Positions 1 through 37,600 of a DNA stretch of 42,441 nucleotides are shown here, piece by piece. Origin of the DNA: Clostridium sp. Lineage in GTDB: Bacteria; Bacillota; Clostridia; Clostridiales; Clostridiaceae. A model generated the notes under the pieces. That model was not told where the DNA came from, did no database searches, and was given only the letters and a program-made list of their open reading frames with translations. The stretch spans positions 1-42,441 of the forward strand of contig JARLHR010000086.1 of assembly GCA_031292145.1 (NCBI GenBank), written 5' to 3'. How positions within the stretch are numbered: the first letter of the stretch is position 1; every line of letters begins with the position of its first letter. The translations under genes were made by a program, and so were the position numbers.

Positions 1-4
1 AACA

Positions 5-1066
5 TTGAAAAAGGAATTAATCAAAATCTTCCAAGTTGCTACAGTATTTATCGGTACAATTGTTGGTGCTGGACTTGCTTCTGGAAAAGAAATTACAGAG
101 TTTTTTACTCAATATGGAATAACAAGTTTTTTAGGTATCATAGGCTGTGGCATTTTCTACATTTTAATGAATTCTATAATTTGTAAAATAAGTATTGATT
201 ATGATCTTAATTCATATAGTGATGTCATGAACATAATAAGCCCAAATATATTTGGCAAATTAACTGGACTCATAACTACACTTTTTCTTATTTCCAGTGC
301 TTCTATAATACTTGCTGGAAGTGGAGCTTTAATTCATCAATTTTTTGGATTACCCAAAATAATTGGTTCCTTAATTATGATTTTAATTGCAGTATTTTTT
401 TTACTTAGAGATACAGAAGGCTTAATAGAAATTAATTCCTTTATTGTTCCAGCATTAATTTGTACGCTTACCCTAATTACAATTTTATATTTCGCATTTT
501 GCAAGGATACCGTTACATTTGCGAATATAACTAGCTTTCCACCTAAGAAATCTGGAATTCTTATTTCAACGATATTATATGCAGGATATAATACACTTTC
601 AGCTTCAGGAGTCTTAGTTCCACTTAGTAATCAAATGAAAAAGACTAAAACTATGATTATTGGAGTAATTACTGGTGCAATCGGCCTCACTATACTTTGC
701 TTGATGATAAATCTATTATTAACTGTTAATCAGCCATATATATACAGATATGAAATTCCACTACTTTTTGTAGCTAATAGGTTTGGTAATCTAATTCAAG
801 CATTATTATTAGTTATTATTTGGCTGGAGATGTTTTCTACTGAAGTATCAGATATATATTCAATTAGTAAGACTTTGAATAAAACATTTAATATAAAATT
901 TAAGAAAGCTATATTTATAGTTATAGCTTTTGCTCTTATAATTTCCCAATTTGGATTTGGAAATCTTATAAATAAGTTATATCCTATGTTTGGGGTTTTA
1001 AGTTTAATTTTTATATTTCAATGTATATTATTCTACTTTAGACATAATCGTAATTTAAATAAATAA
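5..1066 (+). CDS. YkvI-like integral membrane transporter
   Basis: The protein is 353 residues and consists almost entirely of hydrophobic helices, about ten by eye. It opens with a first helix containing GTIVGAGLASGKE, the glycine-rich broken helix typical of the YkvI family in the APC/LeuT-fold superfamily, so it is probably a secondary transporter in the cytoplasmic membrane. Its substrate is unknown. The start is a TTG at base 5. Its ribosome binding site lies outside the window, so an upstream start cannot be excluded, but MKKELIKIFQ followed directly by the first helix is a normal beginning for this family. A strong hairpin follows the stop codon within ten bases, and the next gene has its own promoter, so this is probably the last gene of its transcript. 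Family assignment is fairly secure; the function is not. Confidence 0.75.
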   Translation: MKKELIKIFQVATVFIGTIVGAGLASGKEITEFFTQYGITSFLGIIGCGIFYILMNSIICKISIDYDLNSYSDVMNIISPNIFGKLTGLITTLFLISSASIILAGSGALIHQFFGLPKIIGSLIMILIAVFFLLRDTEGLIEINSFIVPALICTLTLITILYFAFCKDTVTFANITSFPPKKSGILISTILYAGYNTLSASGVLVPLSNQMKKTKTMIIGVITGAIGLTILCLMINLLLTVNQPYIYRYEIPLLFVANRFGNLIQALLLVIIWLEMFSTEVSDIYSISKTLNKTFNIKFKKAIFIVIAFALIISQFGFGNLINKLYPMFGVLSLIFIFQCILFYFRHNRNLNK

Positions 1067-1072
1067 GACATA

Positions 1073-1114
1073 AATAAATGGATTAAGATTGCTTAAGATC
1101 TTAATCCATTTATT
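1073..1114 (+). terminator. Intrinsic terminator-like hairpin after the YkvI-like gene
   Basis: A perfect 17-bp inverted repeat (1073-1089 with 1098-1114, 8-nt loop) begins seven bases after the stop codon. The downstream run of T is poor, so termination efficiency is uncertain. Confidence 0.6.
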
Positions 1115-1295
1115 ATCTAAACTTATCAAAAATTAATACTTTGTTTTTACAAAAACTTACAGATTTTTTATTTATTAAATCAATTATAAAATGCTATATT
1201 ATATGTGTTATAATTTGTTTTAGATAAATTATATAATGATTAAATTACCTTAATATAACACATATACACTGATATATAAAGGAGTTAATAAACAT

Positions 1296-2312
1296 ATGGA
1301 ATATTCATTTAGTAAAAAAGAAAATAACAGCTTAAATATGCTCACTGAATGCAACCTTTGCAATAGGAACTGTAAAGTTAATAGAAATGATAATGAGCTT
1401 GGATTTTGTAAAGCTTCAAATAAAGTTAAACTCGCAAAAGCCTCTTTACACCTTTGGGAAGAGCCCCCTATTTCTCAGGGAAATGGTTCCGGTACAGTGT
1501 TCTTTTCTCATTGCAATCTTAATTGTGTATTTTGCCAAAACTATAATATAAGCCAAGGTATTAAACAACCTCTTTTTTCTGCTCCAAATTCAAATGATCT
1601 AGAAATTCAAAATTCTAGCTGTGAATCTTCAATTATAGGAATGGAAATATCTATCGAACGACTGTCTGAAATATTTTTAGAACTTCAAAAAAAAGGAGCA
1701 AATAATATTAATTTAGTTACTCCAACACATTATGTTCCTCAAATAATAGAAGCACTAAAAATTGCAAAAAAGAATAATTTAACTATACCTATCCTTTACA
1801 ATACAAATACTTATGATTCAATTGAAACCATAAAATCATTGGATGGATATATAGATGTTTATTTACCAGACTTTAAATACTTTAATGATAAATATGCCAT
1901 TAAATATTCTAATGCTAAAAATTATTGCTCCAATACGATAAACGTAATAGATGAAATGATAAGGCAAGCTGGTAAACCAGTATTTAACGCTGCAGGACTT
2001 ATGGTTAAAGGCGTTATTATAAGACATTTAATGCTTCCAGGACTTCTTTTTGATTCAAAAAAAGTAGTTGACTATGTTTATAATAAATATGGTGATGATG
2101 TTTATATTAGTTTAATGAATCAATATGTACCTATGTTTGAGGCTTGCAATTATCCTGAAATAAATAAGTCTCTTAATCCCAAACATTATGATAGTTTAAT
2201 TAACTATGCTTTAAACCTTGGTATTAAGAATGGATTTATTCAAGATGAAGGTTCTAATACCTCTGATTTTATTCCAGAATTTAATTTAGAAGGTGTAAAA
2301 AACAAGTTTTAA
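1296..2312 (+). CDS. Radical SAM protein, PflX/PflA-related (COG1313 type)
   Basis: This 338-residue protein carries the radical SAM signature CNLNCVFC (Cys73, Cys77, Cys80), the CX3CX2C site that binds the catalytic [4Fe-4S] cluster and S-adenosylmethionine. Ahead of it lies a cysteine-rich N-terminus (Cys19, Cys22, Cys26, Cys38), as in the PflX family of pyruvate formate-lyase activase homologues, probably another metal site. The target of this family is not established, and no glycyl-radical enzyme is adjacent to name a partner. The ATG is preceded by AAAGGAG at good spacing. Upstream, TGTTATAAT at 1206-1214 is an extended -10 candidate. It is a single-gene unit between a hairpin upstream and a shared terminator downstream. 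Confidence 0.85.
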   Translation: MEYSFSKKENNSLNMLTECNLCNRNCKVNRNDNELGFCKASNKVKLAKASLHLWEEPPISQGNGSGTVFFSHCNLNCVFCQNYNISQGIKQPLFSAPNSNDLEIQNSSCESSIIGMEISIERLSEIFLELQKKGANNINLVTPTHYVPQIIEALKIAKKNNLTIPILYNTNTYDSIETIKSLDGYIDVYLPDFKYFNDKYAIKYSNAKNYCSNTINVIDEMIRQAGKPVFNAAGLMVKGVIIRHLMLPGLLFDSKKVVDYVYNKYGDDVYISLMNQYVPMFEACNYPEINKSLNPKHYDSLINYALNLGIKNGFIQDEGSNTSDFIPEFNLEGVKNKF

Positions 2313-2323
2313 TCTCCGAAAAT

Positions 2324-2371
2324 AAAAGGCATGCTTTTTCTCCCGAAAAATTAGTAAAGCATGTCTTTTTT
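2324..2371. terminator. Terminator between convergent genes
   Basis: AAGGCATGCTTT (from 2325) pairs with AAAGCATGTCTT (to 2367) with one G-T pair, and is followed by T residues on + and preceded by A residues, so it can act for the radical SAM gene (+) and for the protease gene (-). Confidence 0.7.
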
Positions 2372-2389
2372 ATTCTTAATTTATTTTAA

Positions 2390-5300
2390 TTAATAATAAA
2401 ATTTAGGTATTCCCCTGTTATTATCTAATCCTGGTATAATTGGTGGTATAAACTCATTTATCACACATAACCTACTTGATTCAGTAGTGGTAAGTTCTGC
2501 AAGCTTTGTTATGCCAACATAAACATCTGATATCTTATACCATGTTGCATAATCAACTATTCCTGTTTGTGGCAATGTAAATACTTGCTGAAATATTTTT
2601 ACTGCATCTACTGTTTTTTGAGTATACTGTCCATCTTCAGCTTGCTTTGGAATTAATGGGTAGTTCCTTGATATTCTATTTAATTGACCTTGGATTGTTC
2701 TTACATCTGGACCAGATGATCCAATTGATAATGCATGTCCTGGATATGATTGAGGACTTCCTGCTACTTTTTCAGCTGTAACTAATTCAATGTCATCTCC
2801 ATAATAATTCCTCAATATATCAAATGGCACCATACCTTGCACAGCTAATTCTTGGGTTCCCCATTGACTTAACCATTGAGGGCATGTAACACTCTTTCCA
2901 TCACAATATTGTGTAAAAAGTGGTTGTTTTTTTCCAACTCTTCTTACATAAGTAGAAAAAATTTCATCTACAATTTGGCTTATGCTATCATAAATATTTC
3001 TACCATAATTAAACGCCTGATCATACGCTGTAGAACTTCTAATATCAAAATTCTTTCCTTTCCCTCTATACCATTCAGTAAAAATTCTATTTAATGTAAA
3101 AGACACTATGCAAAAAATATTAGCTCTTAAAGATGATTCCTTCCAAGTTGAGTATATTTCACATGAAGCAACGTTTTTAATATAGTCCTTAAATGGTACC
3201 TTATAATTTGGAGCTGATGGATCATTGGGACCTCCTTGATGAACAATAATATATTCTGGAACTATAGGCTGTGGCAATACAACTCCTGATGTTGGTAGCG
3301 GCATTGGTTTATCTACCTCTTCTGGTATCTTAGGTGGAAAATTACCATTCAATGTATTAGGCTGTATATTTATAACTTCCTGTCTCATATCACCTCTTCC
3401 TAAGCTGATCTCTAAATTACATATTTGATATGCAACCTGAGTTGGAAATACCTGACACCCTCTTATTATTATTGGCTTAAATCCATTCCTATCAACAGTT
3501 ATATCATACACACTATAAGGTATCTGATTGATATTCTTATTTAAGGAATACGCTAGTGGTGGTGCTGCTAACTCTATTTCCGTTGTTAATCCAACTGCAT
3601 CCGTAACTAATTCAATACTTTTTATATTTTCAGTACCTTGTGTGCCCGTTACAGTTATCTTTGCTCCATCAATTGGAATATAATTATCACCTCTAAAACA
3701 CTGAACCTTTAATCTTCCTGTATTTGCCCCAGGATTTATATTACTTGTACTCTCCATATCTGTCCTCTTTATATTTTTTCTCAAAATATTATATTTATTA
3801 GGTATGATATTTGTTACTAGTATATCTTTTTCATCTATATTTCCTCTAGTTAAAATCGAATTTAAATCAGCTTCGAGTAAACTTATGCTATCAAATGCAC
3901 ATACTTCTCCATATCCCCATAATGGGTTTGGATATGTTACATCTGTCCGTCTTCTTTTTGCCCCTTTTATTAAATAATATTTTAGTCTTTGTCCAAATAA
4001 ATAAGGATCATTCCCTTTGATTATTCCCCACTGCATCATCAGTGCGCATATTCCTGCTACTTGTGGTGTTGCCATTGATGTTCCTGTTTTATTATCATAT
4101 CCTCCATTAGGGACTGGTCCAACTATATCTTCTCCAGGTGCAACTAAATCAGGTCTTACTAAATTCCCTTGATTTTGAGCTCCTCGTCCACTGAATGATG
4201 AGAGATTTCCCGTTCTATAATTGTAACTTCCTACTGCAATTATATTATCTACAGTTGCTGGTATTCCCAACGTATTGTATTGAATTGGTTCCATGAATCT
4301 TGTATTAGGATTAAGTGATTCTAAAACTGGAAGCCATATTGAATATACTCCTAAATACTCATTTAAAACACTTATTTCTAAAGTCCATACTCCTTCTGCG
4401 AGATATCCTGTTCTGGCCGAAAGAATAATCTTTATTTCACTATTTAATTCAAATGGCTTTGGTCCTGCCACATATATGTCATATCTATCACGTCCTATCC
4501 CACCTTGAATATAACCTTCCTGTATATTGATATTTCCGCTACTTGTTCCTGTTGGGCTTATTATACTTATTGCTATATTAGGCAAAATTGACTTATAAAA
4601 GTTCATAACTATTGATTTTTCATCGCTTCCTATGTTAAAAGTTTCTCTTTGAGCTTTAGTTAATTCCCCCCCAATATGATGCCCTGCATCGCCATCATTT
4701 CCTGCAGCAATAACAATAGATACCCTCTCTAGATTTGATACAGTTCTAATATATTGCTCAAGTAGACTGCTTCCATCATGTGCTCCATCATTTGTACTTA
4801 AACTCATACTAATAACCACAGGCATATTTAACTCTTTACTTTTATCAAGTAGAAACCTAATTCCCTGCATTATTTGTGAACTTAAAATTGCAGTCCCTCT
4901 TGCCGCTTTAACCATTGCTATTGATGCATTAGGTGCCACACCTTTATACATCTGATTTATATTACCACCACCACATGCTATTCCTGCAACATGGGTTCCA
5001 TGACCTGTATTATCAATAGATGGAACCACTGAATAAGGATTTGAGGACTTTATTGCTTGATTTATTATTTGCTTATCGTAAATACTTCCTCCCGTACTCA
5101 AGTCATAAATGTATTCTATCCTTGTTGTTCCAGCAGTGTTCATAAACGCTGGATGCGTATAATCTATTCCCGAATCTACAAATCCAACTAATACACCATC
5201 ACCCAAAACATTATAATCAGAATTTACTTGCAGTATACATGATACCCTATTGCTCTCTTCATCTTGTTCGTATAAATTTTTGGGCAATTCTATATATTGG

Positions 5301-5581
5301 ATAGTATTACTTAAGGATAGTTTCTCTAGCTTATCCCTAGGTATATTAACTACTGCAAAGTTAAATCCCAAGTCCTGAAACTTCCCTCCTAAACTTTCAA
5401 TAAACACTCTTGTTTGCTCCGGAGTATCCCTGTATAGAATCGTAAGTTCTACAGTATTATCTTGACCTTCTTGTACACTATATTTATAACCCACTTGATC
5501 TAGTATTGCCTTTGGTACATTGGTTAACAATCCTATTGAGGCATCAGTCTTTGAAGATATATCATTTCCTATTTCAGGCAT
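2390..5581 (-). CDS. Csp-type subtilase fused to SleC-type spore cortex-lytic enzyme
   Basis: From the ATG at 5581 the protein has 1063 residues. Residues ~20-110 look like a subtilase prodomain. The S8 protease follows with Asp136 (FVDSGID), His194 (TGHGTHVAG), oxyanion Asn295 (AAGND) and Ser502 (TGTSMATP), all intact. A beta-rich insert at ~320-440 resembles the jelly roll of clostridial Csp germination proteases. After a linker (~575-615), residues ~620-1063 follow the SleC plan: a beta-rich N-terminal module, a SpoIID/LytB-like lytic domain (~793-933; probable catalytic Glu808 in VASCEIYSTW, Cys893 and Cys900), and a peptidoglycan-binding domain (~954-1018). In known clostridia Csp protease cleaves separate pro-SleC, which then degrades spore cortex. 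Here both are joined. The start is chosen because AGGATGTGAT lies 9 nt before it; in-frame ATGs up to 5617 lack such a site. Domain calls are from recalled family features, not a search. Confidence 0.8.
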   Translation of the reverse strand: MPEIGNDISSKTDASIGLLTNVPKAILDQVGYKYSVQEGQDNTVELTILYRDTPEQTRVFIESLGGKFQDLGFNFAVVNIPRDKLEKLSLSNTIQYIELPKNLYEQDEESNRVSCILQVNSDYNVLGDGVLVGFVDSGIDYTHPAFMNTAGTTRIEYIYDLSTGGSIYDKQIINQAIKSSNPYSVVPSIDNTGHGTHVAGIACGGGNINQMYKGVAPNASIAMVKAARGTAILSSQIMQGIRFLLDKSKELNMPVVISMSLSTNDGAHDGSSLLEQYIRTVSNLERVSIVIAAGNDGDAGHHIGGELTKAQRETFNIGSDEKSIVMNFYKSILPNIAISIISPTGTSSGNINIQEGYIQGGIGRDRYDIYVAGPKPFELNSEIKIILSARTGYLAEGVWTLEISVLNEYLGVYSIWLPVLESLNPNTRFMEPIQYNTLGIPATVDNIIAVGSYNYRTGNLSSFSGRGAQNQGNLVRPDLVAPGEDIVGPVPNGGYDNKTGTSMATPQVAGICALMMQWGIIKGNDPYLFGQRLKYYLIKGAKRRRTDVTYPNPLWGYGEVCAFDSISLLEADLNSILTRGNIDEKDILVTNIIPNKYNILRKNIKRTDMESTSNINPGANTGRLKVQCFRGDNYIPIDGAKITVTGTQGTENIKSIELVTDAVGLTTEIELAAPPLAYSLNKNINQIPYSVYDITVDRNGFKPIIIRGCQVFPTQVAYQICNLEISLGRGDMRQEVINIQPNTLNGNFPPKIPEEVDKPMPLPTSGVVLPQPIVPEYIIVHQGGPNDPSAPNYKVPFKDYIKNVASCEIYSTWKESSLRANIFCIVSFTLNRIFTEWYRGKGKNFDIRSSTAYDQAFNYGRNIYDSISQIVDEIFSTYVRRVGKKQPLFTQYCDGKSVTCPQWLSQWGTQELAVQGMVPFDILRNYYGDDIELVTAEKVAGSPQSYPGHALSIGSSGPDVRTIQGQLNRISRNYPLIPKQAEDGQYTQKTVDAVKIFQQVFTLPQTGIVDYATWYKISDVYVGITKLAELTTTESSRLCVINEFIPPIIPGLDNNRGIPKFYY

Positions 5582-5616
5582 AATAATCACATCCTGCATA
5601 AATATATACATAAACA

Positions 5617-5650
5617 TACTATGAAAATAATATATTTATGCATAAAAAAA
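5617..5650 (-). promoter_or_regulatory. Possible sporulation-type promoter of the Csp-SleC gene
   Basis: On the minus strand CATAGTA (5623-5617) resembles a sigma-G -10 element, with GCATA (5641-5637) upstream. The 13-nt gap is shorter than expected for sigma-G, so this is weak. Transcription from here would start downstream of 5617, agreeing with the ATG at 5581 as start. Confidence 0.25.
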
Positions 5651-5686
5651 TAGAGAATAATCGCATTGTTGAATTATTCTCTATTT
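5644..5686 (-). terminator. Intrinsic terminator of the XRE regulator gene
   Basis: A 14-bp perfect stem (5648-5661 with 5673-5686) with an 11-nt loop is followed on the minus strand by seven T residues (5650-5644). It separates the XRE gene from the protease gene. Confidence 0.8.
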
Positions 5687-5713
5687 ATATATTACTTTTT
5701 TCCAAAATTAATA

Positions 5714-6385
5714 TTACTGTAGTGTAATCTCAACTTTTTCTAATTTAGCAATTACACTCATTTCCTTTAATTCCATAGTTTCAGTAATCAAATTTCCAGC
5801 ATTACTTATTAAAAGTACTTTTGAATTTCCTAAAACTTTTACTTGTCTAATCTTTCTTTGCTCCTTATAGTCAATTAAAAAAAATCCATTATTACTTACT
5901 TCTTTTACACTATGTGCAAAAGCAATGTCTCCTTTTAGCATTCTAAAGCCATTCATTTCATCATCTTCTATTTCTAAATAAAATACTTTATCTTGTGGAT
6001 AGTTCTCTATCTTATTTGAATGAACTGGCATTTCTTTAACACCCTTTTTATTAGACAAAGAATAATTGTATATAGGTACACTTCTAAGTACAGATGAGAA
6101 GGCATCTGTCCAAACTTCTGAACTTTCAATACTCTTTCTTGGTAATTCTTTAAAACTTTTCTTTTCTTCCATAAGAGCTTCATCTGTAACTACCATACTT
6201 ATATCATTTAAATCAGCTTTTAAAACTTTAGCTGCCTTATCTATTAATGACTCAGGTGCAACCTTTCTCCCCATTTCAACTTCATTTAAAAACTTTTCTG
6301 CTACACCTAACTTTTTAGCTAAAACTTTAACTGTCATTCCATCTTTTTCTCTAGCTTGCTTTATATTTTCTCCTACACGACTCAC
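5714..6385 (-). CDS. XRE-family regulator with LexA/S24-like C-terminal domain lacking catalytic residues
   Basis: Residues ~6-60 of this 223-residue protein form a Cro/CI helix-turn-helix (MTVKVLAKKLGVAEKFLNEV). Residues ~115-223 resemble the S24 LexA/CI-repressor peptidase fold. The usual nucleophile motif GDSM is replaced by DDEM (Asp142-Glu143-Met144, before MLKGDIAF), and no lysine sits where the partner is expected (KIRQVKV). It therefore probably does not cleave itself and the domain may serve for dimerisation or ligand sensing. The start is GTG, with GGGGAG eight bases before it. The gene is flanked by two hairpins sharing the stem AAATAGAGAAT. Regulatory targets are unknown. The HTH is secure; the S24-like reading is moderate. 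Confidence 0.75.
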   Translation of the reverse strand: MSRVGENIKQAREKDGMTVKVLAKKLGVAEKFLNEVEMGRKVAPESLIDKAAKVLKADLNDISMVVTDEALMEEKKSFKELPRKSIESSEVWTDAFSSVLRSVPIYNYSLSNKKGVKEMPVHSNKIENYPQDKVFYLEIEDDEMNGFRMLKGDIAFAHSVKEVSNNGFFLIDYKEQRKIRQVKVLGNSKVLLISNAGNLITETMELKEMSVIAKLEKVEITLQ

Positions 6386-6424
6386 TTTCTGTTCTCCCCT
6401 TTTGCTCTGCTAAGGCAATTCCAC

Positions 6425-6467
6425 AAAATAGAGAATCAGTATGCTAGTATATTTGATTCTCTATTTT
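6425..6467 (-). terminator. Intrinsic terminator of the DUF3783 gene
   Basis: A 14-bp stem (6425-6438 with 6454-6467) overlaps the stop codon of the DUF3783 gene. The stem ends in T on either strand. Its sequence matches the stem of the hairpin at 5648-5686. Confidence 0.65.
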
Positions 6468-6826
6468 TTTCCATTAGCCTTAAACCATTCTCTTTCTTCA
6501 ATTAAATGCTCTAACAAATACTTAAAAGTCCACTTGTAATTTTGAGGTGTAGATACTGCTAATATCCCGCCTTGAATGAATCCCCTAATGTATCTGATGG
6601 TAAATTTTAATTGCTCATCTTTAAATCCATTGAAAATAAGTGCTTTTTCATCTAACGGCAATTCATCATAAGAATTCTCATTTGTACATTCATTAATTAT
6701 ATTTTCCAACTTCATTGAAATCATATTACCTGTTATCTCTATTACCTTAATATTTTGGCTCTCAATCTTATTAATTTCTTCTTTACTTAATCCATGCACC
6801 AATATACATTTCTTATTTTGAACCAT
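6461..6826 (-). CDS. DUF3783 domain protein
   Basis: This is a 121-residue soluble protein matching the clostridial DUF3783 family, which has no known function. Family-like stretches are CILVHGLSKEEINKIE at the N-terminus, ALIFNGFKDEQLKF in the middle and YLLEHLIEEREWF near the C-terminus. Its length is normal for the family. The ATG is preceded by AGAGGTG at good spacing. It lies 45 bp downstream of the cyclophilin gene in the same direction with no clear terminator between, so the two may share a transcript. The stop codon falls inside the terminator hairpin. Confidence 0.75.
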   Translation of the reverse strand: MVQNKKCILVHGLSKEEINKIESQNIKVIEITGNMISMKLENIINECTNENSYDELPLDEKALIFNGFKDEQLKFTIRYIRGFIQGGILAVSTPQNYKWTFKYLLEHLIEEREWFKANGKK

Positions 6827-6871
6827 TTATAACACCTCTTTTCTTGTAATTTACTATAGTTTAAATATCCT

Positions 6872-7396
6872 TTATTCTTCAATTATTTCTGGTTCTTTAA
6901 TTTCCTCACCTTGCGTATCTACTATAACACTTTTTATAACTTGATCTTCATAAGGCCTATCTGACATATCAGTCTTTTGTGCAACAATCTCATCGGCTAC
7001 TTCTATCCCCTCAATAACCTTACCAAAAGATGCATATTGTCCATCCAAATGTGGTGCATCTGCTACCATTATAAAGAATTGGCTTCCTGCTGAATCAGGG
7101 TGCATAGCTCTAGCCATAGATAATATTCCCTTTGAATGCTTTAAAGTATTTTTGAATCCATTACTTGTGAATTCTCCTTTTATTGAATATCCTGGGCCTC
7201 CAATTCCACTACCTTCTGGACATCCTCCTTGAATCATAAAACCTGGAATAACTCTATGAAAAATTAGTCCATCATAAAAACCTCTATTAATTAAATCTAC
7301 AAAATTTCTTACTGTATTCGGAGCTATTTCAGGATATAATTCTGCTTTAATTACTCCACCGTTTTCCATAGTCATTGTAATAATTGGGTTCTTCAT
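6872..7396 (-). CDS. Cyclophilin-type peptidyl-prolyl cis-trans isomerase
   Basis: This 174-residue protein is a single cyclophilin domain, which catalyses cis-trans isomerisation of prolyl peptide bonds. The active-site strand FHRVIPGFMIQGG (Arg48, Gln56), SAGSQFFI (102-109) and HLDGQYASFG (from 116) are all present. There is no signal peptide, so it is cytoplasmic. A short acidic tail (EEIKEPEIIEE) follows the domain. The ATG at 7396 is chosen over an in-frame TTG at 7417 because AGAGGAG lies about nine bases before this ATG and would lie inside the coding sequence of the longer form. It sits downstream of murI (about 105 bp) and upstream of the DUF3783 gene, all minus strand. Confidence 0.92.
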   Translation of the reverse strand: MKNPIITMTMENGGVIKAELYPEIAPNTVRNFVDLINRGFYDGLIFHRVIPGFMIQGGCPEGSGIGGPGYSIKGEFTSNGFKNTLKHSKGILSMARAMHPDSAGSQFFIMVADAPHLDGQYASFGKVIEGIEVADEIVAQKTDMSDRPYEDQVIKSVIVDTQGEEIKEPEIIEE

Positions 7397-7502
7397 TATT
7401 TTTATTTCTCCTCTCAAATATACATATTAATAAATATTATTATCTAAAATATAAATTTAAATTCATCAATATTTTATGTGTTATCATATATCTGAATTAT
7501 AT

Positions 7503-8276
7503 TTATATTTCTATATTAATTAGATTATAACAGAAATCTATAATCTTATTATCATTTATAGAATTATAAATCACTATATCTCCATTTTCTTTTGAATCAT
7601 TTAACAAATCTTTTTCAATTAATTTTCTCTTTAATTCTTGAGCTGTACCAATTCCACCATCAATAAGTGGTATATCACTTCCGACAACACTCGCTAAAGC
7701 CTTTTTTATAAATGGATAATGTGTACATCCTAAAACTATTGAACTAATATTGCCTTGTAAATACACTTTAAACTTCTCTTTTAAATAATATTCCAATTCT
7801 TCTCCATCTAATATTCCTTGTTCTATAAATTCCACAAGCCCTGCGCAAGGTAATGATACTATATTAGCCTCATTATTATACTTATTCATTAGAGCCTTAA
7901 ATTTCTTTTCTCTTAATGTCATAGGGGTTGCCATTATTATTACATTCCCCTTCCTATGTAACTTAACTGCAGGTTTTAAGGCTGGTTCTATTCCTATTAT
8001 CGGAATATATTTATATTTATCTCTAATTTCTTGAATTGCGGCACTAGTTGCTGTATTGCATGCTATCACAACCGCTTTAACATTTTTCTCTAATAAGAAA
8101 TCTACTGCATTTAAAGTAAGTTTTTTAACTTCGTTTAATTGCCTAGTCCCATACGGAGCATTTTTTGAATCTCCAAAATATATAAACTTTTCGTTTGGCA
8201 TAATAGATATTGCTTCTCTCATTACACTCAAACCGCCTACCCCTGAATCAAAGAATCCAATAGGATTATTTTTCAT
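7503..8276 (-). CDS. murI: Glutamate racemase
   Basis: The enzyme interconverts L- and D-glutamate to supply D-Glu for peptidoglycan. Numbered from the ATG at 8276 (257 residues), the catalytic cysteines are Cys73 in IACNTATS and Cys184 in LGCTHYPF. The N-terminal [12 protein letters not shown] contains the conserved Asp10 and Ser11, and [10 protein letters not shown] follows. Length is normal. An in-frame TTG two codons upstream (8282) is an alternative start. GAGGA lies about ten bases before the ATG and four before the TTG, so the choice is not certain. About 360 bp without a gene separate it from the divergent HD-GYP gene. Confidence 0.93.
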
Positions 8277-8282
8277 ATCCAA

Positions 8283-8643
8283 AGTGTCCTCACTCCATTT
8301 TTTTAATCATTTTATGAAATATTATTATATTATTTCAAAATATTCGCTATTATAGTAAATATTTTATTACTTTATTACCTTACTGTCTAGCAATTCTAAT
8401 ACTCACTTTCTTCTATGCATAGTAATGAATAAAATTTTTCATTATGTAGCTCTGCAAATGAACATGTTATTTAAATATAAACACTAACAAAAATTCATAT
8501 TCTCTATAAAAGTATATTTTTAGATTATTTTGTATATTATTATTTATATTAACCTATTATTTTATATTTTTCCATTATTATAGTATAATTTTGTATATTA
8601 TTTGTGATATAATAACAATTATTAAAGGAAGGGGTATGAAATT
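8283..8643. other. Divergent intergenic region murI / HD-GYP gene
   Basis: AT-rich spacer between divergent genes. It must hold both promoters. A short inverted repeat, TAATGAA with TTCATTA, lies around 8423-8443. An extended -10 element for the + strand gene is listed separately. Nothing else could be recognised. Confidence 0.5.
8605..8613 (+). promoter_or_regulatory. Extended -10 promoter element of the HD-GYP gene
   Basis: TGATATAAT is a perfect TATAAT with a TGN extension. No good -35 lies 17 bp upstream. A strong ribosome binding site AGGAAGGGG follows before the ATG at 8644. Confidence 0.45.
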
Positions 8644-9753
8644 ATGAGGTTAGTTCCAATTGAGTGCATTAGAGAGAATTCATTATTAGGAAAAAATATA
8701 TATACTCCTGATGGTAGATGTTTACTTAAGGAAGGATTTATTCTAAATAGCGATACATTAATAAAAATTAAAGAGCATAAAATATTTTCCCTTTATATAA
8801 TTGATGATTACAGTGATGCTGTTATTGAAGATATTATAAAACCAGAATTAAGGCAAAAATCTATTTCTGTCATTAAAGAAACATTTTCCAATATAGAAAG
8901 AATATCCTCAGCCCATGACTTTAAAAAAAGAACTATTAATGACTATACAAAACAAGAGAAAGAATACTTCAGCTCAATTAATACTATTGCTGAAGAGTTA
9001 GTAGACAACATATCAACAAACAAAAATGTATTACTATCGTTGGTTGATATTAAAAGTATGGATAATTATACTTATGCTCATTGTGTAAATGTTGCTGTAA
9101 TATCACTTGTACTTGGAATTAGTTTAAATCTCTCTAAAAAAAATTTAACATATCTTTGTGTTGGCGCATTGCTTCATGATATAGGTAAATCATTTATACC
9201 AAGTGAAATCCTTCAAAAACCTGCAATGTTAACTCCTGAAGAATTTGAAATAATAAAAAAACATCCAAGATATGGTTATGAATTTTTAAATAATTTTTAT
9301 AGTTTAAGTTCCCATATTAAATTAATAGTCTTACAACATCATGAACGATTTGATGGTTTAGGTTACCCTACTGGTATCTCAACAGAAACCATTAGTTACT
9401 TATCTAGAATTGTATGCATTGCAGATGTGTATGACGCATTAACTTCTGATAGACCATACAAAAGAGCTATGTGTCCAAGTGATGCTTTGGAATACTTGAT
9501 GTCTAATTCCGGTACATTATTTGATCCTAATATGCTCGATGTATTTTGTAAAGTTATTATTATTTTTCCTCAAGGGACATTAGTAAGTCTTAGCAACGGT
9601 GATATAGGTGTAGTCGAAGAAACTCTTCCCTGCTTTCCATTAAGACCTATTGTAAAAATACTAAAAAGCGAACGTTCTAATCATATTGGCTCTAAAGTTA
9701 ATTTAATATATAACCTTTCCATTGTTATTTCCAAAGTAATTTATGAAGTATAA
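8644..9753 (+). CDS. HD-GYP domain cyclic-di-GMP phosphodiesterase
   Basis: This 369-residue protein hydrolyses the second messenger c-di-GMP, by family. The HD-GYP domain spans about residues 130-310: LLHDIGK supplies His178-Asp179, HHE is at 232-234, and the diagnostic GYP is at 240-242 in HHERFDGLGYPTG. All expected metal ligands appear present. The N-terminal ~120 residues have no recognisable sensor domain but begin like other clostridial HD-GYP proteins (LVPIECIRENSLLGKNIYT). No membrane segment is evident, so it is cytosolic. It is monocistronic, with its own extended -10 element, a strong ribosome binding site and a terminator immediately after the stop. It probably affects motility, adhesion or sporulation, but no neighbour shows which. 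Confidence 0.9.
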   Translation: MRLVPIECIRENSLLGKNIYTPDGRCLLKEGFILNSDTLIKIKEHKIFSLYIIDDYSDAVIEDIIKPELRQKSISVIKETFSNIERISSAHDFKKRTINDYTKQEKEYFSSINTIAEELVDNISTNKNVLLSLVDIKSMDNYTYAHCVNVAVISLVLGISLNLSKKNLTYLCVGALLHDIGKSFIPSEILQKPAMLTPEEFEIIKKHPRYGYEFLNNFYSLSSHIKLIVLQHHERFDGLGYPTGISTETISYLSRIVCIADVYDALTSDRPYKRAMCPSDALEYLMSNSGTLFDPNMLDVFCKVIIIFPQGTLVSLSNGDIGVVEETLPCFPLRPIVKILKSERSNHIGSKVNLIYNLSIVISKVIYEV

Positions 9754-9797
9754 AACAAGCTTATAAATACATAACATTTTGTATTTTAGCTTGTTTT
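9752..9797. terminator. Terminator after the HD-GYP gene
   Basis: AAAACAAGCT (from 9752) pairs with AGCTTGTTTT (9788-9797), with an inner AAATAC/GTATTT stem, followed by a T-rich stretch. It may also serve the minus-strand gene ending at 9870. Confidence 0.75.
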
Positions 9798-9869
9798 TTG
9801 TTATATGTATTTCATTATATTGATCATAAGCAATTAATTATAAAAATATTTCTTTAAACATACATATTT

Positions 9870-10115
9870 CTACTGTAACAAATTTAACTTGTGTTTCTTA
9901 TATGTAAACGGATTTAAATTAGCTAGCTCTTCAGCCTCTTTAAAACTTCTAGCTCTAAATACTAACGTCCATCCATTTTTATCATATTTTCCTGCACACA
10001 TTATGTATTTTTCTTGTCCGCTTATGCAATATCCCTGTCTGTCTATTATCAAACTTCTAATATTATCAATATCTTTACAATTTAATTTAACAAAAAAACT
10101 TCCCATTTCCTTCAT
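9870..10115 (-). CDS. Small protein of unknown function behind a consensus promoter
   Basis: I do not recognise this 81-residue soluble protein. It contains four cysteines' worth of scattered Cys residues rather than a paired metal motif, and ends basic (YKKHKLNLLQ). The stretch WTLVFRARSFKEAEELANLNPF faintly recalls YciI-like ferredoxin-fold proteins, but this is only a hint. The ATG at 10115 is chosen because AAGGAG lies nine bases upstream; the in-frame ATG at 10124 would directly abut that AAGGAG. A textbook sigma-A promoter lies about 40 bp upstream, so expression should be strong and constitutive unless a repressor acts. Codon use is like the neighbours. It is flanked by terminators and so is monocistronic. 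Confidence 0.75.
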   Translation of the reverse strand: MKEMGSFFVKLNCKDIDNIRSLIIDRQGYCISGQEKYIMCAGKYDKNGWTLVFRARSFKEAEELANLNPFTYKKHKLNLLQ

Positions 10116-10154
10116 AATATGCATCTCCTTAGCAAACGTATGTTCATTAATTAC

Positions 10155-10183
10155 ATTATACAGAACAGGTGTTTGGTTGTCAA
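10155..10183 (-). promoter_or_regulatory. Perfect consensus sigma-A promoter
   Basis: On the minus strand TTGACA (10183-10178) and TATAAT (10160-10155) are separated by exactly 17 bp. It reads into the 81-residue protein gene. Confidence 0.88.
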
Positions 10184-10263
10184 CTAATCTACGCGCTTCT
10201 TTATGTAAATATATTTAATCGAAATTCCATAGTAAGAGGTTTTTAATTTATCTAAAAATATAC

Positions 10264-10311
10264 TAAAAAACATAAGATCACTGAAAACTTCAATATTTTC
10301 AGCGATCTTAT
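10264..10311 (-). terminator. Terminator of carAB
   Basis: A 16-bp stem with one mismatch (10272-10287 with 10296-10311) is followed on the minus strand by TTTTTT. It lies just downstream of the carB stop codon. Confidence 0.8.
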
Positions 10312-10321
10312 AGTGTTCTTT

Positions 10322-13300
10322 TTATTCAGCTATGTTAAATACTTCTAAGTCGTTCCTTTCATCAAACTTTTCAAGTTCTACATCAGCAATTGCTCTTAAT
10401 GTATCTAATGCAGTAATTACTCCTAAGTTTCTTTCAACGGCTGCTCTTCTTATTAAGAACCCATCCCTATTTGAGTCATTTCCCTTAGTTGGAGTATTTA
10501 CAACTAAATCAACATCTCTGTTCTTAACTATATCTAAGATATTTGGTTCTTCTTCATCAATCTTTCTAATCTCTTCTACCTCTATACCCGCTTCTCTTAG
10601 TAATGCACAAGTACCTGTAGTTGCTATAAACTTATATCCAACTGCTGCAAGGTCCTTTGCTATCGGTAAAAATTCTGCTTTATCATGCTTATTTATTGTT
10701 GCTAGTATCTTTCCTTTTTCCTTAGATGGATACATATACGCTCCAACAAATCCCTTATATAAAGCTTCCTTCAGATTTCTACCTACACCTAAAACTTCCC
10801 CTGTTGATGTCATTTCAGGCCCTAAACTCACTTCAACATTAGGTAATTTTTGAGTTGAGAATACTGGAACTTTAACTGAAACGAGTTTTGGTTCCTTATA
10901 TACATCTATTCCATATCCTAAGTCTGTTAATTTAGCTCCAAGCATTACCTGCGTAGCTAAATCTACTATTGGAACTCCACTTACCTTACTTATATATGGT
11001 ACTGTTCTTGATGCTCTTGGATTAACTTCAATTACATATAATTCACCCTCAAATTCTATAAATTGAATATTTATCATTCCCTTTATTCCAATTTCTAGGG
11101 CTAATTTTCTAGTATATTCTAATACATCAGCTTTTATCTTGTCAGAAATATTTTGACTTGGATACATGGTAACACTATCTCCTGAATGAACTCCAGCTCT
11201 CTCCAAGTGCTCCATAATACCTGGTATTAATATATTTTCACCATCAGATATTGCATCTACTTCTATTTCTCTTCCCATTAAATATTTATCTATAAGAATT
11301 GGATTTTTCTTATCCTTCTCAAAAGCATTTTCTAAATAATATGTCAATTCTTCTTCATCATGAGTTATTTCCATTCCTTGGCCACCAATTACATATGAAG
11401 GTCTAACAAGTACTGGAAACTTTAATTTTCTAGCTTCCTCTAAACCATCATCTACAGACCATACACCTTTACCCTTTGGTCTTGATATTCCTAATCTCTC
11501 TAGTAATGCATCAAATTTTTCTCTATCCTCTGCCAAATCTATTTGATCTGCTGTAGTACCAAGTGTCACAATATTTTGTTCCTTTAAGAAATTTGCAAGT
11601 TTAATAGCTGTTTGCCCACCAAATTGAAGTATTACTCCATCTGGTTTTTCCTTTTCTATTATATTTAAAACATCTTCTTCAGTTAGTGGTTCAAAGTACA
11701 ATTTATCTGACACGTCAAAGTCCGTACTTACTGTTTCCGGATTATTATTAACTATTATAGTCTCAATTCCTAGTTTCTTTAAAGCTTTTACGCAATGTAC
11801 TGAAGCATAATCAAATTCAATACCTTGACCGATTCTTATTGGACCAGATCCTATAACTATTACTTTCTTGTTATTTGATACTTCAACCTCATCATATTGC
11901 TCATAAGTTGAATAGTAATATGGTGATAATGCTTCAAATTCTCCACCACAAGTATCAACCATTTTATATGAAGGTTTTATATTCCATATATCTCTCAATC
12001 TATATATATCATCTGGAGAAACTTTTAACATATCAGCTATAGCCTTATCAGAGAATCCTTTTTTCTTCAAATGATGTAACCATTCTTTATCTAAATCTTC
12101 TATTTTACTTAGTTTTAATCTTTGTTCTTCTTCAACTATCCACTTAATTTTTTCTAAGAAGAACATATCAATTCCAGTAATTCTATTTATTTTCTCTATT
12201 CTATAATCTCTTCTTAACATTTCTGCTAATGCGAAAATTCTTTCATCATCTGGAGCCATTACTCTTTCTTTAAGCTCCGACATGCTCAGTTCTTTAAACT
12301 TCTTATGATCCAAAGAATATTTTCCTATTTCTAAGCTTCTAATTCCTTTTAAGAATGCTTGCTCAAGGTTAGCTCCAATAGCCATGATTTCTCCAGTAGC
12401 CATCATTTTCGTTCCAAGCTCTCTATCTGCACCAAAGAACTTATCAAAAGGCCACTTTGGTATTTTAACTACAACATAATCAAGAGTTGGTTCAAAACAG
12501 GCATAAGTCTTTTGTGTTACAGCATTTTTTATTTCATCTAATCCATATCCAAGTGCTATTTTAGCTGCAAGCTTTGCAATTGGATATCCCGTTGCTTTTG
12601 ATGCTAAAGCCGAACTTCTTGAAACCCTAGGATTTATTTCTATAACTGCATATTCAAAACTAGTTGGATTTAATGAAAACTGTACATTACATCCACCTTC
12701 AATTCCAACTGCATTTATTATATTTATTGATGCCGTTCTAAGCATTTGATATTCCTTATCTGAAAGAGTTTGCGATGGAGCTACAACTATACTATCTCCA
12801 GTATGTATACCTACAGGATCTATGTTTTCCATATTACATACAGTAATACAGTTCCCATAAGAATCTCTCATTACTTCGTATTCTACTTCTTTCCATCCCT
12901 TTACACTCTTTTCAAGTAAAACTTGACCTATTGTACTTAATTGAAGTCCTAATCTTAAGATAGTCTCAAGTTGCCCTTCATCATTAGCAATACCACCACC
13001 AGATCCTCCTAGTGTATAAGCTGGTCTTACTATAACTGGATATCCTATTTTGCTAGCAAATTCTAACCCCGATTTTAAATCAGTTACAATTTCGCTCTTT
13101 ATAACAGGTTCTCCGATTCTATTCATCATATCCCTGAATAATTCTCTATCTTCACCCTCTTTTATAGATGCAATAGATGTTCCGATTACTTTTACATTAT
13201 ATTTTTCTAATATACCAGAATCATGTAATTCTACAGCAAGGTTAAGTCCTGTTTGACCACCCATTCCTGCAAGCAAACTATCTGGTCTTTCCTTAGCTAT

Positions 13301-13531
13301 AACTTTTTCAACAAATTCTAATGTTAATGGTTCTAAATAAACCTTATCTGCAACTTCCTTATCAGTCATAATTGTAGCAGGATTTGAATTTATAAGTACA
13401 ACTTCTATACCTTCTGATTTTAATGCTTCACAAGCTTGAGTTCCTGAGTAATCAAACTCTGCCGCTTGACCTATGACTATAGGACCTGATCCTATAACTA
13501 AAACTTTTTTTATATCTTTATTTAATGGCAT
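10322..13531 (-). CDS. carB: Carbamoyl-phosphate synthase large subunit
   Basis: CarB makes carbamoyl phosphate from bicarbonate, two ATP and ammonia delivered from CarA, for pyrimidines and arginine. The 1069-residue length is normal. The two homologous synthetase halves begin with [20 protein letters not shown] (residue 8 onward) and [20 protein letters not shown] near residue 555. Each half has the ATP-grasp signature, for example [12 protein letters not shown] and [12 protein letters not shown]. The last ~135 residues are the MGS-like allosteric domain ([18 protein letters not shown]). The ATG is 14 bp after the carA stop, with its ribosome binding site GGAGGGG next to that stop, so the pair is a translationally linked operon. 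Control is by the PyrR attenuator upstream of carA. Confidence 0.97.
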
Positions 13532-34616: not shown

Positions 34617-37600
34617 CTAGTGATTTTCATCAGTAATCTTAATTAATTCATCCGAATTATTATCATCATTTGACTCATTTATATTATTCCTTATATTATT
34701 CCAAATATCATTTGCTGATTTCTTAGCTATTATCTTATACTTATTATCTTTTATAGTTGCATCAAATTGACATATGGAAGAAAAATCGCAATACTCACAA
34801 TGAGTTCTATTTGTTCTTTTAGTTGGCTGTATTTTTATTTCTCCACTTAGCATTTCCTCACATAATTCAACCATCTTTTTATTTACATATTCTCTAAGTA
34901 ACGTAAATTCTTCCTCTGTAACTACGTCGCTATTAGCCTTAAATTCTCCATCATTCTTAAATGCTGCTGGTATAATTAATGAATATCCCTCAATATCTTT
35001 ATCCATAGCTTTAACAACTCTGGCATCTTTTAAAATTAATCCTTTAAGCTTTAAAGCACTCAGAACTTCTTCTTCAACTTCTTCTGTTGTCATTTCTTTT
35101 TTACCTTTGATTATAGGATCATCTATTTTAAAATATAGTATAGCTCCTGGCTTTGCCTGTTTATCTAATATATACTTTGAATTTCTAATAAGAGCATCTA
35201 GATACACTAACAGCTGCATTTGTAATCCATAATATAACTCATTTAATTCAAGTTTACTGTTGCCTGTCTTATAATCTATAACTCTTATATAGGTTTCACC
35301 ATCCAATTCCAATGTATCTATTCTATCAATTCTACCTTGAAGATATATTTTTTCATTAGAACTTAATTCTAAAGCTATAGCTTCCCCCGTATTGTAACTA
35401 CCAAAATTAAATTCAGTCTTAAATACTTCAAATTCACCCTTTCCAATCTGATTTGCAATAATTGAAACAGATTTAGATATTACTCTTTTAAATCTTTGGG
35501 TTAAATACTTAAACTTATTTGTACTATTTAATATAGAATTACTTTCTGCATTTAATTTATTATCAATAATATTGGATACAATTTCTTTGCATTTTTCATT
35601 GTTTAATTCAGACCACAATATTCCATCTTCTTTAACCTTATTAGTAAATGTATCTAACATCTCATGAACAAATGATCCCAAATCCGGCGGTGCAAACTCG
35701 TATATTTTTCTATTTTTAGCCTTAAGTCCATATTCAACAAAATAAGAAAATGGACACTCTGCATACTTTTCTAGCCTTGAAACACTAAACACTAATTTTC
35801 CCATCTCATTTTGATAAAGCTCTCTAAGTTTCCTCTTAGCTACTATATCCCCTACATTAGAATATGTAAGGCCTTTAAATATATTTTTAACCTTATCTTT
35901 AAATTCTTCATTTTCTTTGAACCAATTATAAACTTCTGGCCAATAGGTCTCTATATTCTCATTATCAAAATCTCTTCTCACAGCTACTATAAGTTCATTA
36001 AATGTTGGAACTGGTGATATAACCTTGCTAAATTTATTCTTTTTACTGTCAAAATTATAAATATCACTTTCTTCAATTAGATTAGGAAGTATTTTTTTTA
36101 TTCTATGTATTACTATAGATGGTCTTAATGACTTACCTTCAAAATCAGCCATAGGATATGATAACATCAAAAATTCACTACTTATTGTTAATGCTGTATA
36201 TAACAAAAATTGTTCTTCAAATACCTTATTTCTGGTTGTTGAAGCTAAATTTATCCCTATACTACTCAACGTTTCCCTATCTCTATCAGATAATATCCCC
36301 TCATCCTTTTTAGCTGATGGAAATACACCATCATTAATTCCTACTATATAAAGAATCTTTACCTCTCTACCTTTAATTCTTGCTACATCTCCAATATTAA
36401 CTTGATCTAAAGCAACGGGTATAACACCTATCTCCTCATTTTCAAATCCTGAATTTAATATTTTAAAAAACTCAAAGTATTCTAATGTTTCTTCTCCAAT
36501 TACATCTACTGCTTGATCTAATATATCTATAACTATACCTTGAACCTGGCTATATTCTTTAACCTTATCTTCTAATCCTATCTCTTCAAAATTTACAATC
36601 CACTGCTCTATCCTTTCAAAAGCATTTATATCAACTAAAAATTCATAAATAGCCGCACACATATCTTTAACTTTATGCTTTCCATTTATTTTATTATGAA
36701 AAGTAATAAGAGGTCTCCTTATTTCTTCCATAATTTCAGATATTAATATTTTTTCATTTGTTATTTCTTCATCGTTATTAAACCACTTTTCACTTATTAT
36801 TTCTTCTACAGTCCACTTATATCCCCTTATTCCATGTTCTAATATAAAATTTTCTAAAACATCTATATATGAATTATTAATTCCAGTTAATCCACTCTTT
36901 AAATACTTAAATACACTTTCATAAGACCAGTTTTTAAACAAAATTTCAAAGGCAGAGCTTATGAGTATAACTAATGGATTGCTTAATAGTTGCATTTTTT
37001 TATCTAAAAAATATGGAATATCATACTCATTAAAAATTACAGCTGTTATTTTTTCATAATCATCTATATTCCTACAAACAACAGATATATCTTTGTACCT
37101 ATATCCTTTATTTCTAACAATCTCTGTAATGCTTTTAGCAACTCTTTCTATCTCATCGTAAATATTGTTTGCCTTATAAATTTCTACACTGTTACACTCC
37201 TCATAATATCCATTGAATGGATAAGTAAAAAAATACTTTTCTATATGGCAAAGTTCAGGATTATCTTTAAATCTATATGGTTTAAAATTATTTAAATAAA
37301 CGGGTTCATCATAACCTATACTATTTTCCTTCATTATCTTTAATATTTTATTTTCCGTATTCTTTATCACATTAAATACATCTGTTATATCTTCATAATT
37401 ATTCTCAACGGATTTGCTTTGCATACAAAGAGTTATATTTATCCTCTTGCATCTCTTAGCTAATAATTTTAAAATCTCTAACTGTTGAGGTGTAAAACTT
37501 GTAAATTCATCTACCCAAACTTCTGCCCCAGCATATGCATCACATTTAAATAATTTTTCACTTAATAAAGTTAATTCGTCATCTCCATCAATATAATTTT

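Follow-up and report, generated by a model that had tools for sequence, protein, structure and literature searches.

The germination protease CspB and its substrate, the cortex hydrolase SleC, are encoded as a single polypeptide in a clade of Clostridium. The gene lies in the window, i.e. the whole stretch of 42,441 nucleotides analysed here (contig JARLHR010000086.1), where it occupies positions 2390..5581 of the minus strand and encodes a CspB-prepro-SleC fusion of 1063 residues. The fusion is genuine and conserved (13 of the 68 genomes sampled from the genus carry intact copies, 16 in all), and the sequences indicate that it most likely stems from one fusion event in the ancestor of a C. 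beijerinckii-like clade, followed by partial reversal and by the budding off of free copies. It is apparently a variant within the Csp-SleC system that has been undescribed so far. Most work on the encounter of Csp proteases with pro-SleC, on its activation and on the place and time at which each is deposited in the spore has been done in pathogens. The occurrence of protease and substrate as a single chain in a group with non-pathogenic, industrially used species makes stoichiometry, timing and co-delivery testable in C. beijerinckii.

Architecture of the fusion protein

The open frame extends without interruption over 2390-5617 of the minus strand (the strand of all coordinates below unless stated), which gives 1075 residues when counted from the first ATG. 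We judged the ATG at 5617 to be too early because it lies inside a promoter-like -10 element, CATAGTATG (5615..5623), a putative mother-cell signal upstream of the fusion that we take to be sigmaE/sigmaK-like; the putative start at 5581 looks better. The pattern CATANNNT[AG] is present upstream in 13 of the 16 fusion copies.

Both full modules are matched within this one frame. Csp and SleC are encoded as a single polypeptide, as the initial annotation had proposed, and the residue numbers that it gave for the protease triad and for Glu808 are exact. The N-terminal half consists of a CspB prodomain (residues 11-101, 5279..5551; Pfam CspB_prodomain, E 8e-21) and an S8 subtilase (Peptidase_S8, E 2e-42) with the Asp/His/Ser triad D136 (5174-5176), H194 (5000-5002) and S502 (4076-4078). 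C. perfringens CspB (4i0w) is matched over residues 109-569 (3875..5257) at E 5e-166; it is by this sequence alignment that the jelly-roll insert of about 130 residues is placed in the subtilase. Alignment also points to YEQ106|D107 as the putative position of prodomain autoprocessing; the autoprocessing position of CspB is described as conserved in PMC3567191.

The C-terminal half is related to SleC over the full prepro length, residues 622-1031 being homologous to pre-pro SleC (PDB 9h68) at E 7.7e-113, with a catalytic Glu and a PG-binding domain. The former, Glu808 (3158..3160), aligns as a putative SpoIID-like lytic residue and is invariant in all 16 fusions; its catalytic role, also given in the initial annotation, is one that we assume. 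The pro-region spans residues 734-767 (3281..3382) by alignment, and Csp presumably cuts SleC near V767/V768. It is preceded by the pre-region (residues 622-733, 3383..3718), aligned likewise and bounded according to the YabG site given in PMC6464247. Further upstream lies an internal ATG, Met609 (3755..3757), identified by comparison with relatives as the old sleC start codon; the first start codon falls at the matching place in 9 of 15 stand-alone relatives. The SleC C-terminal tail comprises residues 1029-1063 (2393..2497). In a profile search of the two halves, a check that had been suggested with the original proposal, CspB_prodomain, Peptidase_S8 and PG_binding_1 (residues 956-1016, 2534..2716; E 3e-13, 50.1 bits against a cut-off of 23) all exceeded their cut-offs, while SpoIID reached 19.3 bits in the window fusion and 22.2 in the copy L130, against a cut-off of 23, and TIGR02669 scored 26.9 against 83.3 in the SleC half.

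Comparison with known Csp and SleC proteins

The fusion resembles C. perfringens CspB (4i0w) acting on pro-SleC in its modules, triad, prodomain, jelly-roll and SleC pre/pro layout, but there CspB and SleC are two proteins from two genes, which in strain SM101 carry neighbouring locus tags. With C. difficile CspBA it shares the CspB N-terminal half, the translational fusion and an expected YabG cut between the halves, whereas the partner in CspBA is a second Csp unit, the pseudoprotease CspA, in place of which the present fusion has SleC. No second Csp unit was found after CspB: NF040809 matches residues 71-569 only, after which SleC follows, and with the CspBA model of NCBIfam the score is 344.8, where 1250 would be needed, the match being confined to model positions 28-524 of 1099. 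Finally, C. difficile SleC is a stand-alone protein with its own sigmaK promoter, whereas here CspB precedes it in frame.

The statement in the initial annotation that no fusion of this kind had been characterised agrees with the literature covered here. Among the papers listed in searches of the open PMC library, none names a Csp-SleC fusion in its title or at the start of its abstract; subscription papers on csp phylogeny, such as those of Kevorkian and co-workers, lie outside this scope, and an earlier mention may exist. Nor does one appear in the accessible portions of PMC6464247, PMC5083711, PMC3567191, PMC3533761, PMC10681294, PMC6362236, PMC12880746, PMC4433262, PMC3789822, PMC6199464, PMC7522474 and PMC4490342.

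Occurrence and conservation

The genus sample comprised 68 genomes (300 had been requested), 66 of which have matches to the SleC half; frames of at least 1050 residues occur in 13 genomes, and reading of the loci gave the 16 intact fusions. The survey of this architecture across clostridia, which the initial annotation had called for, was extended with the SleC half to the family (206 genomes) and the order (225 genomes), and no additional genome with a frame above 1050 residues was seen among the matches listed, which reach down to E about 1e-132. Another locus search returned single-frame fusions at 5 of the 80 loci kept and a broken fusion at another, L024, all in genomes already in the genus count and hence not independent. 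Other loci covering most of the query, L031 and L035 among them, proved to be adjoining separate genes and were rejected as fusions. In tblastn with the fusion, none of 72,556 plasmid records covered 80% of it. The fusion-bearing group is made up of solvent-making, C. beijerinckii-like Clostridium.

Thirteen of the 16 fusions share a syntenic slot, in the order racemase, cyclophilin, DUF3783, XRE/S24 regulator, fusion and radical SAM (for L139, counted among the 13, the contig holds the downstream side only). The three others are L130, L140 and L142; L130 lies on a 73-kb contig that is probably a plasmid, since it carries Rep3 initiators.

An artefact of assembly or sequencing could be suspected because the window's genome resembles a mixed assembly. 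However, the same fusion is found in other genomes and in named records, e.g. C. beijerinckii HUN142, and some fusion-bearing genomes consist of one or two contigs. A frameshift or sequencing error joining two genes, which had been named as a finding that would overturn the proposal, is ruled out by the 16 intact copies in 13 genomes, and the probability of an artefact is negligible.

When separate csp and sleC genes were sought, as had also been suggested, a further free SleC was found in 11 of the 13 fusion genomes and none in G004 and G012. These two have no SleC besides the fusion and no other Csp above 35% identity, so that the fusion is probably functional in them in one way or another. 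This bears on the reading that the fusion is a neutral relic without function, tolerated since stand-alone SleC works. Such a relic would fit the further SleC copies and the broken native copy of G049 (L143, interrupted in the Csp part and elsewhere), but it is at odds with G004 and G012, with the frame that has stayed open in copies diverged to 70-94% identity with the window's halves, and with the purifying selection on both domains (dN 0.084 and 0.074 versus dS 0.94 and 0.70, 12 pairs). We consider it very improbable.

Evolutionary history of the fused locus

Eight unfused relatives were chosen from the 55 non-fusion genomes of the genus. In all eight, the slot of the fusion holds a separate csp (cspB or cspBA) and then sleC, and in three of them, with a plain cspB, the gap between the two genes is 58-92 nt. 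One node of the SleC tree (98/96) unites the 16 fusions with 15 stand-alone genes, apart from 9 unfused genes. The fusions of G022, G004, G012 and G047 branch off successively, the next nodes being 99/94, 100/97, 88/54 and 100/99, and all 15 stand-alones fall with 12 fusions in a node (100/99) without these four. In the Csp tree, 15 fusions group with the CspB of G021 (100/98). The place of G022 among the unfused Csps is not settled in that tree, and the single origin therefore rests on the SleC tree, the synteny and the shared linker.

In G021 and G033 the slot holds a CspB of 628 or 634 residues that ends in the SleC C-terminal tail, and stand-alone SleC is present in both genomes. By its sequence, the tail is the scar of an in-frame loss of SleC, the fusion having been lost again in two species. 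The clade and its relatives offer a natural series in which the two genes are separate, fused, reduced again with a scar, or accompanied by free copies budding off.

Across the csp stop, the unfused L161 reads CAG TAA CAA ATG and the fusions read CAG GTA ACA AAT or similar, suggesting a one-base shift over the old csp stop. Sequence comparison shows that the linker (residues 576-608, 3758..3856) was once the intergenic region between csp and sleC, now translated in frame. Its protein sequence is variable among the fusions. It appears to be a case of a promoter region turned into a protein linker with much of the nucleotide signal kept.

Promoter-like element in the linker

The linker contains a bipartite promoter-like element, GTAACAAAT-N14-ATATAATA (3787..3817), and a Shine-Dalgarno-like AAGAGG (3764..3769) before the internal start. 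Fifteen of the 16 intact fusions carry an exact GTAAYAAAT-N14-ATATAATA, whereas in the intact copy of G049 it has decayed. In each of the nine leaders examined from unfused sleC genes, AC is followed after 16-17 nt by CATA, then by a Shine-Dalgarno sequence and a start; AC, 16-17 nt, CATANNNTA is what we take to be the sigmaK promoter consensus, and the full CATANNNTA occurs in five of the nine. The linker descends from such a leader, and this raises the question of whether the gene is nested. In that case sleC would be expressed mainly from a promoter, ribosome site and start of its own in the linker, and the fused product would be a minor one or a side effect of losing the csp stop.

Several observations agree with a nested gene. 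The same DNA precedes stand-alone sleC, mostly with stops (in-frame within 30 codons of the start in 11 of 15 leaders). Exact matches to the element number 26 in 15 genomes, 25 of them at sleC (15 intact fusions, one broken, 9 stand-alones), versus one match for the reversed control, although the pattern was drawn from these loci, so that the count speaks for specificity and descent and not for independent selection. Downstream of the element, a Shine-Dalgarno sequence and start are kept in all 16 fusions despite amino-acid changes, ATG being exchanged in G022 for GTG with GGAG before it. The linker (residues 576-600; 25 codons, which are few) has a mean dN of 0.222 and dS of 0.281, versus 0.084 and 0.940 for the subtilase (12 pairs), as expected if nucleotides rather than residues are held. 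In a post hoc count over overlapping sliding windows, synonymous change as low as that of the 12 linker windows occurs in 12 to 100 of 1044 windows, and in 2 to 15 of 1044 it is combined with equally high non-synonymous change; windows at 632-664 are also low in synonymous change. According to PMC3789822, csp of C. difficile is controlled by sigmaE, and both sleC and yabG are controlled by sigmaK.

Against this, the fusions read AATATAATA at -10, without the C (AATA instead of CATA, 16/16), and at -35 14 of 16 fusions still have AC and the other 2 have AT, but 9 of the 15 stand-alones have AT. The nested promoter may thus be weak or dead, and the state of most stand-alones weakens both a nested gene and any dual use of the linker. 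The Shine-Dalgarno sequence is unremarkable in strength: each gene has 20 to 38 further in-frame starts, of which 0 to 7 are equally strong. Synonymous shuffles are mixed, with 6 to 1006 of 5000 reaching the observed match; they are suggestive for some copies and weak for others (G049, 1006; the first copy of G002, 716; G013, 606). The decay of the element in the intact G049 copy also counts against a nested gene, and shared ancestry alone could account for much of the likeness. A generic promoter scan found no excess (25 versus 23.2 expected), GTAACA-18-TATAAT being listed at the element; when two mismatches were allowed, a second match appeared in the window at 8348-8378, and two matches were reached by 16 of 100 shuffles. 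On balance, we find it unlikely that sleC is expressed mainly in this way.

From a fused gene, SleC would be produced at the time of Csp; its separate timing would return if the nested promoter were live. The linker could thus be a protein joint and a live late promoter, ribosome site and start at once, giving an early fused precursor and later free hydrolase, with the Csp half activating its own partner where that is the sole SleC. We hold such dual use to be possible rather than probable. If true, the built-in control region would explain why functional free-standing sleC genes could bud off from the fusion.

Predicted processing of the fusion

R733-Q734-E is invariant in all 16 fusions, and Arg733|Gln734 (3380..3385) is by alignment a putative YabG cut. 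The RQ aligns with the SRQS stretch of C. difficile prepro-SleC (CD0551) in which YabG cuts after Arg (PMC6464247). Among stand-alones RQ is found in 14 of 15 and among unfused sleC genes examined in 4 of 9 (Arg alone in 8 of 9), so that Arg-Gln is not essential to the family. The window's genome has a yabG gene, as do 14 of 15 clade genomes, that of G049 being in two pieces 37 kb apart; none was found in G047, which is 93% complete. The invariant site and the presence of yabG together indicate that the chain is probably severed before dormancy. Precedent is provided by C. difficile, where YabG, thought to be Arg-specific, severs CspBA (PMC10681294). On all these grounds a polyprotein is favoured.

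The reading we prefer, with roughly even confidence, is that the fusion is a polyprotein severed by YabG in sporulation, perhaps with additional free SleC from the nested start. The cspB stop codon would have come to be read past, probably by the one-base shift, through the intergenic region into sleC. We infer that the fusion would be made in the mother cell at the sporulation stage, that the Csp prodomain would be removed by autoprocessing, and that YabG would then cut after Arg733, separating pro-SleC from a product made up of Csp, linker and SleC pre-region. The two products would be delivered together to the cortex/coat, and in germination Csp would cut the SleC pro-region and free the lytic enzyme. 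The promoter-like region, ribosome site and start of the linker may also yield some free prepro-SleC.

The initial annotation had instead suggested self-activation in cis: the intact fusion would stay in the dormant spore, where Csp would cut its own SleC half at one-to-one stoichiometry, with a new way of silencing. Its account of the fusion and of the two identities holds; cis activation, the 1:1 ratio and the new silencing are not the leading reading, given R733-Q734, yabG and the losses of the fusion in G021 and G033. An intact chain would fit the absence of a linker stop in all 17 clade loci with both halves (the 16 intact ones, which were found by their open frame, and L143), versus the 11 of 15 stand-alone leaders with stops over the matching 30 codons, and it would fit G004 and G012, where no other SleC or close CspB is at hand. 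However, the invariant YabG-like site lies between the halves, free SleC accompanies most fusions, and the linker varies in protein sequence. That dormant spores contain the whole chain as an enzyme that activates itself is thus conceivable but less probable than a YabG-cut polyprotein, and we doubt it. Nor need the Csp:SleC ratio be 1:1, since free SleC exists and the linker keeps its promoter-like element, Shine-Dalgarno sequence and start. Against the polyprotein reading, every intact copy keeps the fused frame open even though relatives manage with separate genes, and the joined form may therefore have a use for which a polyprotein has no need.

GerA-type receptors were present in all six genomes tried, and the upstream germination signal is therefore probably an ordinary nutrient one.

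Broken, reduced and additional copies of the fusion

In the genome of one relative, G049, the native CspB-SleC fusion (L143) is split into several frames, and this genome also has an intact ectopic copy (L142). The gene for YabG, the protease proposed to cut the fusion, appears in the same genome as two pieces on a single contig (G049:C53:74545-75201 and 36881-37078), with approximately 37 kb between them. A reduced form was observed at L144:5129-7015 and L168:4662-6566, where CspB has a SleC C-terminal tail as its end; this tail is the scar of a lost SleC module. An additional intact fusion was found in another genome on a 73-kb contig (L130/L170, G002:C2), which also encodes Rep3 initiators and is a probable plasmid. 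Among the stand-alone SleC proteins, some have long Gly/Thr/Asn-rich repeats preceding the SleC core (N-termini of L153-L156).

Csp content of the relatives and of the window's assembly

CspBA-type double Csp proteins are present in Clostridium relatives at L158:6632-10339, L160:3659-7393, L163:4282-7899, L164:5864-9427 and L165:2115-5837. In all five, the catalytic triads of both units are complete, whereas C. difficile CspBA does not have two complete triads. A 1399-residue protein encoded at L014:123-4322 contains two complete Csp units and part of another.

The window's assembly contains 12 Csp matches, compared to 5-7 in nine relatives, and a further contig of this assembly (L013, G000:C172) is syntenic with window positions 2-13531, with 83-95% protein identity. 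Together, these results make it probable that the assembly combines sequence from two related strains.
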